Assembly (NCBI GenBank): GCA_002869615.1
Contig: PKUH01000009.1
Location: 1 to 40,113, forward strand
Origin: Desulfuromonas sp.
Lineage (GTDB): Bacteria; Desulfobacterota; Desulfuromonadia; Desulfuromonadales; UBA2294
Reading direction: 5' to 3'
Length of the DNA stretch: 40,113 bases
A model generated the notes under the pieces. The model was given only the letters and a program-made list of their open reading frames with translations, made no database searches and was not told the origin of the DNA. A program made the translations under genes and the position numbers. Each line of letters starts with the position of its first letter. Position 1 is the first letter of the stretch. Of the stretch, positions 27,572 through 31,162 are shown piece after piece.

Positions 27572-28186
27572 ATGAAACTATTTCGCCATCTTTTCCTGAC
27601 CGGACTTCTGCTGTCCCTGCTCCTGGCCGCCTGCGACAATGGCGATCGTTTCAGCTTTTTACGTCCCAACGATGTCATTCTCGCTTTTGGCGACAGCCTG
27701 ACGCATGGAACCGGGGCCAGCGAAGACAAGAGTTACCCGGCCCAGCTCGAAAAAATGCTTGCGCGCACGGTCATCAATGCCGGCGTTCCGGGTGAGGTTA
27801 CAGCCGAAGGGCTGAAACGCCTGCCGGGATTACTCGATAAGCATGATCCGGATATGCTGATCCTCTGTCACGGCGGCAATGATATCCTGCGCCGTCTCGA
27901 CCGGGAAACGACCATTGCCAACCTCAAGGCGATGATTGGCGAAGCGCAGGCACGTGACATTCCGGTTATCCTGGTTTCGGTACCACAGTTCGGACTGTTC
28001 ATTGACTCGGCCCCCTTCTACCAGGAGATCGCCGACGAAATGAAGATTTTCTGTCAGAACTCAATTGTCAGCGAAATCCTGACCGATAAATCGCTGAAGA
28101 GTGACACCATTCATCCGAACGCTGACGGGTACTTCCAGATGGCGGAGGGGATCGCCGATCTGCTCAAGGAGCACGGGGCAATCTAG
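27572..28186 (+). CDS. tesA: GDSL/SGNH lipoprotein esterase, TesA-like
   Basis: 204 residues from the ATG at 27572 (GAAGGA upstream). MKLFRHLFLTGLLLSLLLAAC is a lipoprotein signal with a lipobox Cys, whereas E. coli TesA is a soluble periplasmic enzyme. The SGNH blocks are all present: FGDSLTHGTGA (catalytic Ser), the Gly of INAGVPGE, CHGGNDIL with the conserved Asn, and DTIHPNADGY with the Asp-His pair. Predicted lysophospholipase or thioesterase at the membrane. It lies 41 bases after the SH3 protein gene and may share its transcript. Confidence 0.92.
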   Translation: MKLFRHLFLTGLLLSLLLAACDNGDRFSFLRPNDVILAFGDSLTHGTGASEDKSYPAQLEKMLARTVINAGVPGEVTAEGLKRLPGLLDKHDPDMLILCHGGNDILRRLDRETTIANLKAMIGEAQARDIPVILVSVPQFGLFIDSAPFYQEIADEMKIFCQNSIVSEILTDKSLKSDTIHPNADGYFQMAEGIADLLKEHGAI

Positions 28187-28199
28187 CGTCAGGATTCTG

Positions 28200-28227
28200 T
28201 TGACTTTTGAATGGCAGATATGATAAC
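28200..28227 (+). promoter_or_regulatory. Promoter candidate for the leader-aminotransferase unit
   Basis: TTGACT (28200-28205) and GATAAC (28222-28227) are 16 bases apart, placing a start about 18 bases before the leader peptide ATG. Confidence 0.45.
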
Positions 28228-28251
28228 TGATTCGACTTACAGGAGGAGTTC

Positions 28252-28350
28252 ATGACTTTTTCATCGGTAGATACAGCACAAGCGAACAACGCGGCGGCCG
28301 CAGCGCAAGCCGCGCGCACCCTGTTGTCTGTTTTTCTGCCGATTGTCTGA
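28252..28350 (+). CDS. Candidate Ala-rich leader peptide before the aminotransferase
   Basis: A 32-codon frame starts with ATG at 28252 after an excellent CAGGAGGAG site. The peptide begins MTFSSVDTAQ, has five consecutive alanines (nine alanines in all), then RTLLSVFLPIV and a stop 23 bases before a strong intrinsic terminator. The short frame, ideal ribosome site, codon bias toward one amino acid and following terminator are typical of attenuation leaders of amino-acid genes. Alanine or branched-chain amino acids would be the natural signals. Translation and control are not shown. No competing antiterminator was identified by eye. Confidence 0.6.
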   Translation: MTFSSVDTAQANNAAAAAQAARTLLSVFLPIV

Positions 28351-28373
28351 ACGCTTTTATTCTAACCACACCC

Positions 28374-28405
28374 AAGGCCATGGCAGAGAAACCATGGCCT
28401 TTTTT
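28374..28405 (+). terminator. Attenuator-type terminator before the aminotransferase gene
   Basis: A perfect 10-bp stem AAGGCCATGG/CCATGGCCTT with an 8-base loop ends in a run of T. It is 52 bases before the aminotransferase ATG and directly after the leader peptide, so it would stop transcription unless relieved. It could instead just end the tesA transcript. Confidence 0.88.
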
Positions 28406-28457
28406 AATGCATGCAATCGCTTCTGGCGACTGAATTTGATAAGAACAGGAGATTAAA

Positions 28458-29762
28458 ATGCGGAACAATATCGTCCATATCGGTGCCGGAGAACTGACCT
28501 ACGAAATCCGGGCTATTGTCGAGATCGCCGACACACTGAAATCACTCGGGATCAAGACCAACATGGAAAACATCGGTGATCCGATCGCCAAGGGGGAAAA
28601 AATTCCCGACTGGATGAAGAAGATCGTCGCCGACCTGGCGATGAAAGATTGCACCTACGGCTACTGTGCAACCAAGGGCGTGTTAGAAACCCGTGAGTTC
28701 CTGGCCGAAATGACCAACAGACGGGGCAAGGCGCAAATCACCGCTGATGATGTTATCTTTTTCAATGGCCTCGGCGATGCGATCCAGAAGGTTTATGGCC
28801 TGCTGCGCCGTGAATCACGCGTCATCGGACCGACTCCGACCTATTCGACGCATTCATCCGGCGAAGCGGCTCATGCCGGCCAAAGACCGGTCTGTTATCG
28901 GCTCGATCCGAACAACAACTGGTACCCCGACCTTGATGACCTGCGCCTGTCGGTCAAATACAATCCGGCAATCTCCGGCATTCTGATTATCAATCCGGAC
29001 AACCCGACCGGCGCTGTCTGGCCGGAGCGGATTCTCAAGGAGATTGTGGCGATCGCCCGGGAGTACGATCTCTTTATCATCGCTGACGAGATTTACCAGA
29101 ACCTGGTCTACAACGGCCAGTCGACCAAGCCGATTTCCGACCTTGTCGGTGATATTCCGGCCATCTCGATGAAAGGGATCAGCAAGGAACTTCCATGGCC
29201 CGGATCGCGCTGCGGCTGGATCGAAGTCTATAATGCCGATAAGGATCCGATGTTCAAGCGGTACATTCAGAGTATCCTTGATTCAAAGATGGTCGAGGTC
29301 TGCTCAACCACCCTGCCGCAAAAAGCGATCCCGCCGATCCTGAGCCATCCCGAATACCAGGGTTGGCTCGACGAACGGATTGAACGCTACGAAAGATTTT
29401 CAAACATCGCCTACGATCTTCTGAAAAAGGTCCCCGGAATACGTTGCAACCGGACCAACGGCGCCTTTTACATGAGTGTCGCTTTCGAACGGGATGTTTT
29501 GAACAACAAGCAGACGCTGCCGATCGAGATCCCCGAAGTCAAAACCCTGGTTGAAGGCCTGGTCAACGAACCAGGGATCAGCCTCGACAAGCGCTTTGTC
29601 TATTATCTGCTGGCATCGACCGGGATCTGTGTCGTGCCGCTCTCGTCGTTCTTTACTCCCGAGCTCGGATTCCGGATTACCCTGCTCGAGCGGAACGAAG
29701 AGGAGTTCACCAAGATTTTTGAATCAATTGCTTTCAGCATCGCCGCTTATCTCAAATCGTAA
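28458..29762 (+). CDS. PLP-dependent class I/II aminotransferase
   Basis: 434 residues, fold type I. Seen: the N-terminal ENIGDPIAKGEKIPDW, the cofactor-binding NPDNPTGAVW, Asp210 and Tyr213 in IADEIYQNLVY, the PLP Lys243 in GISKELPWPGSRCGW, and C-terminal GFRITLLE with the carboxylate-binding Arg. Such enzymes move amino groups between amino acids and 2-oxoacids; the exact substrate is not decided by these motifs. The Ala-rich leader upstream makes alanine or valine/leucine attractive guesses. An AGGAGATTAAA site precedes the ATG. gshA follows 50 bases downstream. Confidence 0.92.
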   Translation: MRNNIVHIGAGELTYEIRAIVEIADTLKSLGIKTNMENIGDPIAKGEKIPDWMKKIVADLAMKDCTYGYCATKGVLETREFLAEMTNRRGKAQITADDVIFFNGLGDAIQKVYGLLRRESRVIGPTPTYSTHSSGEAAHAGQRPVCYRLDPNNNWYPDLDDLRLSVKYNPAISGILIINPDNPTGAVWPERILKEIVAIAREYDLFIIADEIYQNLVYNGQSTKPISDLVGDIPAISMKGISKELPWPGSRCGWIEVYNADKDPMFKRYIQSILDSKMVEVCSTTLPQKAIPPILSHPEYQGWLDERIERYERFSNIAYDLLKKVPGIRCNRTNGAFYMSVAFERDVLNNKQTLPIEIPEVKTLVEGLVNEPGISLDKRFVYYLLASTGICVVPLSSFFTPELGFRITLLERNEEEFTKIFESIAFSIAAYLKS

Positions 29763-29812: not shown

Positions 29813-31162
29813 ATGCCTGAGCCGATACTCGCCATGGATCAGCCTGTTGAGACCAAACAGCAGCTGATCAACTATCTCTCCGCCGGCGCCCGCAAACCGG
29901 AAAAGCGCTTTATTGGCGCCGAACTGGAAAAACTGGTGATCGTCAGGGAAAGTGGTGAAGCGGCCCCTTTTTCGCGCATTGAAGAACTCCTCAGACGGCT
30001 TGCGCAGACCGGCGGCTGGGAGGGCATCCGTGAAAACGACCACCTGATTGCCCTGCAGGGGAGCGACTCTTCGATCACTCTCGAACCGGGAGGTCAGCTT
30101 GAGCTTTCCGGTGCCCTCTGTTCCGACATTCACTGCTGCCATGGCGATCTGATCCGCCACCTGCGCCAGATTTCCGGCCAGGCCGAAGAGCTTGGCCTCG
30201 CCTTTCTCGGCCTCGGCCTGCATCCCTTCTCCGGACTCAAAGATATAGAATGGCTACCGAAGGACCGCTACAAGATCATGGGTCCGTACATGCAAAGGCT
30301 CGGCGGCCATGGCCGTGAAATGATGACCCTCAGCGCCGGCGTCCAGATCAATCTCGATTTTATTGACGAAGCCGACTGCGTCGAGAAACTCCGCTTCGGC
30401 ATGATGCTCTCACCGCTTCTTTACGCCCTGTTCGCCAACTCCCCCCTGCTGCACGGCAAACCGTCGGGCTACCTCTCGACCCGCGGTCATTTCTGGTCAA
30501 CCACCGACCCGGATCGAACCGGACTGATTATGGCGCTCTTCGACGATGACGCCAGCCTTGAAACCTACGTCGATTATGCCCTGAACGTGCCGATGTACTT
30601 TATCGTTCGCCAGGGTCAGTACGTTGACCTGACCACTGAACGTTTCACCTTTGCCCGCTTCTGGCAGGAGGGCCATGCCGGGCATCAGGCCCTGATGTCC
30701 GACTGGATTCTTCATCTTTCGACCATCTTCCCTGAAATCCGGTTGCGACCGCAGCTCGAAATCCGTTCGATCGATTCTTTGCCCCAGAACATGTCGCTGG
30801 CCGCAGCGGCGTTACTCAAGGGGCTCTTTTATGACAAGAACGCCCAGGCCGATGCGATGCAACTTTTCAGTCCGCAAGAACTGACTGAAACCTACCGGCA
30901 ATCCCCGAAGTCAGGCCTCGCCACACCGCACAACGGCCATACTCTTCAGGATATAGCCATCGACCTGCTTGTCCTCGCCCGGGAAGGGCTACAGCGGCAA
31001 AAAGTCCGCAACAATTGTGGCATGGATGAAACCATCTACCTCGATATCCTCGACGAAATGGTCGCCAGCGGCAAAACCCTGGCCGAGAGGCTGTTGCAGG
31101 ACTGGCACGGCTCCCATGCCAATAAGCTGGCAGCGCTGATCCGGCATTGCGCCATGACCTGA
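29813..31162 (+). CDS. gshA: Glutamate-cysteine ligase, plant type
   Basis: 449 residues. Joins glutamate and cysteine with ATP, the first step of glutathione synthesis. The sequence matches the plant/alphaproteobacterial GCS2-like class rather than E. coli GshA: FIGAELEKLVIV, EPGGQLELSGA, GLHPFSGLKDIEWLPKDRYKIM, GREMMTLSAGVQINLDF and RGHFWSTTDPDRTG. A glutathione synthetase gene is not in the window. The ATG at 29813 follows TAGGCTAAAGTC; a second Met at 29834 is possible. A strong terminator lies about 150 bases downstream, so the aminotransferase and gshA may share a transcript. Confidence 0.94.
   Translation: MPEPILAMDQPVETKQQLINYLSAGARKPEKRFIGAELEKLVIVRESGEAAPFSRIEELLRRLAQTGGWEGIRENDHLIALQGSDSSITLEPGGQLELSGALCSDIHCCHGDLIRHLRQISGQAEELGLAFLGLGLHPFSGLKDIEWLPKDRYKIMGPYMQRLGGHGREMMTLSAGVQINLDFIDEADCVEKLRFGMMLSPLLYALFANSPLLHGKPSGYLSTRGHFWSTTDPDRTGLIMALFDDDASLETYVDYALNVPMYFIVRQGQYVDLTTERFTFARFWQEGHAGHQALMSDWILHLSTIFPEIRLRPQLEIRSIDSLPQNMSLAAAALLKGLFYDKNAQADAMQLFSPQELTETYRQSPKSGLATPHNGHTLQDIAIDLLVLAREGLQRQKVRNNCGMDETIYLDILDEMVASGKTLAERLLQDWHGSHANKLAALIRHCAMT

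Follow-up and report, generated by a model that had tools for sequence, protein, structure and literature searches.

A predicted alanine-responsive leader-peptide attenuator in front of an alaA-like aminotransferase gene in Desulfuromonadales

Introduction

In the enterobacterial trp, his, leu, thr, ilv and phe attenuators, a promoter is followed by a short leader frame with its own Shine-Dalgarno sequence and a run of control codons, by an antiterminator and an intrinsic terminator that exclude each other, and by a gene of the biosynthetic pathway that matches the control codons. The locus considered here, which lies in a 40,113-nucleotide stretch of DNA (the whole of which we call the window) from the genome of a sediment bacterium of the order Desulfuromonadales (G000:C9), shares these parts, the match of pathway being judged from the homology of the controlled enzyme to Escherichia coli AlaA. 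Unlike the enterobacterial cases, the apparent control amino acid is alanine, the target is a single aminotransferase gene, likely together with a GCS2-family gene, rather than a long operon, and the host belongs to Desulfobacterota. To our knowledge, alanine is not among the classical attenuator cases.

Non-enteric attenuators have likewise been predicted by comparative genomics, with other amino acids and other genes involved: a Cys-codon uORF attenuator of cysS in Rhodobacterales (uORFC-8-2, PMC8632094), and trp, leuS, ilv and cys leaders in Actinobacteria (PMC1262725). The word 'alanine' is absent from the main text of the attenuator surveys that we checked, these two included. Amino-acid-responsive control of termination is also known in the bacterial group of the window, in the form of T-box riboswitches at leuA of Geobacter sulfurreducens and Pelobacter carbinolicus (PMC2494555); a T-box binds tRNA directly, whereas the element described here would act through a translated leader. 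With the Rfam 15 covariance models, T-box included, the window and ten relatives gave no match at gathering score, and the sole sub-threshold match, isrD (E = 0.31), is located on the terminator. As for the enzyme, E. coli AlaA is a glutamate-pyruvate aminotransferase (4cvq; PMC4094517), and it belongs to another NCBIfam family than the window enzyme, which falls in PRK06855.

Our search of the open-access literature, with most subscription journals outside its range, found no alanine attenuator. We know of no attenuator at E. coli alaA. Judged by that literature, the arrangement seems to be an alanine form of classical leader-peptide control that has not been described before, in agreement with a first, sequence-only reading of the window, which had held that alanine attenuation could be new. 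If so, alanine would be added to the amino acids sensed through leader-peptide attenuation, PRK06855 would gain a testable function, alanine synthesis, and the many diverged natural copies of the leader would provide ample material for studying how antiterminators co-evolve and how control codons are chosen.

Results and discussion

Layout of the leader region

The features of the locus are collected in Table 1. All the parts that the sequence-only reading had pointed out, namely a promoter candidate, an ideal ribosome site, a 32-codon frame with five Ala codons and an LLSVFLPIV end, a 10-bp terminator and an aminotransferase gene, are present. The leader peptide contains nine alanines in total, five of them consecutive. 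The terminator hairpin (28374-28401) reads AAGGCCATGG-cagagaaa-CCATGGCCTT and runs into the U tract, with a dG of -16.7. Upstream of the promoter, a GDSL-lipase gene in the same direction ends at 28186.

Table 1. Features of the leader region and the adjacent genes, in window coordinates
Feature	Position	Strand	Basis and details
Promoter	28200-28227	+	-35 TTGACT (28200-28205), 16-nt spacer, -10 GATAAC (28222-28227); read from sequence
Shine-Dalgarno AGGAGGAG of the leader frame	28241-28248	+	Read from sequence
Leader peptide frame, 32 codons, ATG at 28252, MTFSSVDTAQANNAAAAAQAARTLLSVFLPIV	28252-28350	+	Sequence; Ala-rich short frame co-located in relatives
Predicted protector pairing, 28263-28270 with 28336-28343	28263-28343	+	Minimum free energy (MFE) fold of the untranslated leader
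Control codons GCG GCG GCC GCA GCG (five consecutive Ala)	28291-28305	+	Sequence; of the peptide, it is the Ala run that is conserved
Two further Ala codons past the run	28309-28314	+	Sequence
Putative antiterminator 5' strand GTTTTTCTGCC, leader codons 27-30	28330-28340	+	Predicted 11-bp pairing with 28382-28392
Intrinsic terminator: 10-bp stem, 8-nt loop, U tract at 28400-28405	28374-28405	+	Folding; GGCCATGG stem conserved
Putative antiterminator 3' strand GGCAGAGAAAC: end of the terminator 5' arm, loop and one further base	28382-28392	+	Pairing; partner-swap test
Controlled gene (predicted): PLP-dependent aminotransferase (NCBIfam PRK06855), class I/II	28458-29762	+	Family match; E. coli AlaA is the closest of the solved structures
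GCS2-family (glutamate-cysteine ligase family 2) gene	29813-31162	+	Pfam PF04107

The alanine run and its conservation

The orthologous aminotransferase gene was taken from 58 related genomes and the named genome contigs. At nearly every Desulfuromonadales locus examined, what precedes it is a short frame that includes a run of Ala codons, together with a terminator of the GGCCATGG type, the leader peptides being, for example, MILAMAKAERATTAAAAAQAARYAVFASLPFA in a member of the same genus (L002), MFKATNITAAIKAARANNAAAAAAACHELVHCLEN (L005) and MINTAAAAARAFQAATLRLSTVHHP (L059). A protein search with the window peptide matched only the window itself; the leaders of the relatives are missed because the peptides are too diverged, and conservation was therefore read from synteny. 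What is kept among the relatives' leaders is the run of control codons for one amino acid, while the remaining peptide diverges. This bears on the conservation of the frame, which the sequence-only reading had put up as a test: it is specifically the alanines, and not the other residues, that persist.

The leader frames were chosen for their Ala content, and the shuffled controls were run with the same ORF-selection rule. Under this rule, the 300 nt before the window gene, dinucleotide-shuffled 3000 times, never reached the Ala density of the real leader; over 73 loci, seven Ala within 12 codons occurred in 0 of 2920 shuffles, as against most of the real loci. The upstream regions of alaS, taken as a gene control (28 loci), carry no Ala leader, nor is there one in front of the alanine dehydrogenase of the window genome. 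The latter gene appears to be split over two contig ends, with its N- and C-terminal parts at G000:C65:17-466 and G000:C98:9-374 (L189, L190).

The choice among the Ala codons is also skewed. The leaders use GCG 109, GCA 90, GCC 78 and GCT 34 times, a GCC share of 25%, compared with 69% (588/852) in the controlled genes. By theory, control codons are matched to the isoacceptor with the most starvation-sensitive charging (PMC1183508), and the avoidance of GCC in the control run fits this expectation.

One might ask whether the leader senses another amino acid, perhaps leucine or valine, given that the window peptide ends in LLSVFLPIV, or arginine, whose codons are common in the homologs. However, Ala alone is enriched in all leaders, the controlled enzyme is nearest to alanine aminotransferases, and the tail varies between species, with HCLEN, VHHP, RRMA and others in its place. 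The tail makes sense once its codons are read as a strand of the putative antiterminator discussed below. We therefore see next to no chance for a signal other than alanine of this kind, and branched-chain starvation, which the sequence-only reading had offered as a possible signal beside alanine starvation, finds no footing in a tail that is not conserved as peptide.

Promoter and upstream neighbours

In 65 of 71 loci, the 100 nt before the leader ATG contain the motif TTGAC-N13-18-GNTA, where 0.7 would be expected from shuffles. A sigma-70 scan of the window did not detect the promoter at 28200-28227, because its -10 element, GATAAC, is insufficiently TATAAT-like. From the conservation of the promoter upstream of the leader it follows that transcription should start upstream of the leader, and we infer a start just upstream of the leader frame, as attenuation requires. 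The position of the start was the second point on which the sequence-only reading had staked its case, a start downstream of the terminator being the adverse outcome; the promoter conserved in these 65 loci lies upstream of both the leader and the terminator.

The same region allows a simpler account, in which the terminator does no more than close off the gene upstream, and the short frame either is fortuitous or serves just to enhance the translation of the gene that follows. Intergenic terminators are common, and the upstream gene of the window is co-directional and ends only shortly before the promoter, at 28186. Yet a conserved promoter sits between that gene and the leader. The upstream neighbours also change from genome to genome, the GDSL gene being found in 3 of 52 relatives checked, while the leader and terminator stay, and neither the Ala run nor the co-evolution of the antiterminator would have a cause under this account. 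We hold it to be very improbable.

A putative antiterminator

The search for an antiterminator by RNA folding, proposed in the sequence-only reading, led to an 11-bp pairing between 28330-28340 and 28382-28392 that co-varies with the terminator. When the stretch after the Ala run was compared with its own dinucleotide shuffles for pairing with the 5' arm and loop of the terminator, the mean z over 73 loci was -1.86, with 50 loci below -1 and 2 above +1; loci of the sister families showed the same tendency (mean z -1.47, 15 loci). In a partner-swap test on 52 loci, chosen as representatives below 80% identity, native partners paired at -16.9 kcal/mol and exchanged partners at -14.4 kcal/mol (permutation z -7.8; 0 of 20000 permutations). 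The shared GGCCATGG motif is retained in the swaps, so the signal points to co-evolution of the variable parts, and the test as a whole indicates a co-evolving antiterminator.

When the window RNA was folded as if a ribosome were stalled on the Ala codons, the terminator had a probability of 0.19 and the antiterminator one of about 0.81. The terminator rose to 1.00 if the ribosome was placed at the stop codon, and likewise if the leader was left untranslated. In the fold of the untranslated window RNA, 28263-28270 pairs with 28336-28343, hiding the antiterminator strand. The folds show a clear choice of structure by ribosome position in the window and seven other loci; with a stalled ribosome, the terminator probability fell below 0.5 in only 8 of 71, equilibrium mostly favouring the terminator. 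In most homologs, therefore, the switch would have to be kinetic, the nascent RNA pairing into the antiterminator before the terminator can form, and equilibrium folding does not decide in general whether homologous leaders switch.

Proposed mechanism

The layout of amino-acid attenuation that the sequence-only reading recognised in the window thus gains weight from three sides, the retention of Ala in relatives, the conserved promoter upstream and the co-variation of antiterminator with terminator. We consider it very probable that the element is a ribosome-mediated transcription attenuator that reads the alanine supply and controls the alaA-like aminotransferase gene.

In our model, transcription would begin just upstream of the leader frame, and a ribosome would translate the leader. 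When Ala-tRNA is scarce, the ribosome would slow on the Ala codons, so that the 28330-28340 strand could bind the 5' arm and loop of the terminator (28382-28392), as the predicted pairing and its co-evolution suggest; with the antiterminator in place the terminator would not form, and read-through would allow the aminotransferase gene to be transcribed. When Ala-tRNA is plentiful, the ribosome would reach the stop codon and cover the antiterminator strand, and the 10-bp terminator would then end transcription. Should the leader not be translated at all, upstream leader RNA is predicted, for the window, to sequester the antiterminator strand, and the terminator would again form. Alanine as product of the enzyme, as homology and the leader suggest, would close the feedback loop.

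A possible nucleotide-level constraint within the alanine run

A further account of the same leaders must be weighed here. The nascent Ala/Arg-rich peptide, or its RNA, might be a specific arrest or ligand-sensing element, with a conserved ARAxxAAAA core, whose CGA codon hardly varies, as the sensor and a signal other than alanine shortage. Of the 58 leaders that have the core Arg, 54 write it as CGA, a codon that makes up 3.5% (24/691) of the Arg codons in the genes. The sister families show hardly any variation in the core GCACGAGCTATCAGCGC, and a small hairpin lies within their Ala codons. The window, however, has Gln (CAA, 28279-28281) at the Arg site, and L128, L129, L131 and L133 are without the motif; moreover, the position, number and spacing of Ala vary widely among the leaders while Ala itself persists, as expected if codons are counted. 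A dedicated peptide or RNA sensor in place of alanine attenuation is, we believe, improbable.

Returning to the alanine attenuator, the near-invariant CGA and the core and hairpin of the sister families suggest a constraint at the nucleotide level beyond the counting of Ala codons, perhaps connected with ribosome timing. One might then imagine that the alanine attenuator has, throughout the class, a second layer at the level of nucleotides, in which a rare, near-invariant CGA followed by GCU, GCG or GCA heads the Ala run, with the hairpin added in the sister families. We put this forward tentatively and with some doubt; if true, the second layer would set the timing of the ribosome or add a sensor beyond Ala-tRNA charging.

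Two details of the core can be recorded in their own right. Within the ARAxxAAAA core of leaders L002-L143, the Ala codon after CGA is never GCC. In the sister families (L210-L227), the extended core GCACGAGCTATCAGCGC[AC]GCGGCG is nearly invariant in nucleotides, and the Ala codons form a hairpin of the type GCGGCG-N5-YGCCGC.

The enzyme and the linked gene

The aminotransferase matches PRK06855 with 746.6 bits against a cut-off of 443; the family has no assigned substrate, and PRK08363, alanine aminotransferase, ranks second. Among solved structures, E. coli AlaA (4cvq, E = 1.1e-47) is the best match, covering residues 13-346 with the SK lysine motif aligned, the C-terminal part being diverged from AlaA and unaligned. 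The conserved Ala leader is itself an argument for alanine as the product, and homology and leader taken together point to L-alanine synthesis from pyruvate and glutamate as the most likely reaction. The GCS2 gene follows the aminotransferase gene in 44 of 52 relatives, with a gap of about 50 nt in the window, and the two are probably co-transcribed.

Distribution among genomes

The predicted attenuator is conserved throughout the class, and some lineages outside it have it as well. PRK06855 members were found in all 117 sampled genomes of the class (E <= 1e-100). A covariance model built from 32 leaders gave one full-length match each in 80 of the 98 genomes of the order (E below about 1.2e-8), and every match whose neighbour was checked precedes the same aminotransferase gene. 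Ten secondary matches were inspected: two (L191, L192) are leaders before the aminotransferase, and the other eight are ordinary terminators or chance matches. On the strength of these matches, primary and secondary, the leader seems to serve a single gene. Of 20 loci sampled from sister families of the class, 17 have an Ala-rich leader before the orthologue, two of the 17 with only four to five alanines.

Family f18 of the order gave no strong match to the covariance model in 13 of 14 sampled genomes. The aminotransferase is retained in this family (L026, L027, L120, L130; L191), the attenuator being missing or reduced in those 13 genomes, and G206 has a shortened leader.

At the Syntrophaceae and Desulfobulbaceae loci examined the leader is absent, and it is found in other Desulfobacterota lineages (L076, L080-L084, L177, L178). 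At five loci from other classes of this phylum (L080, L082, L083, L084, L178), the Ala-rich frame is followed by two successive GGGCTGC-type hairpins with T tracts, which are possibly tandem terminators.
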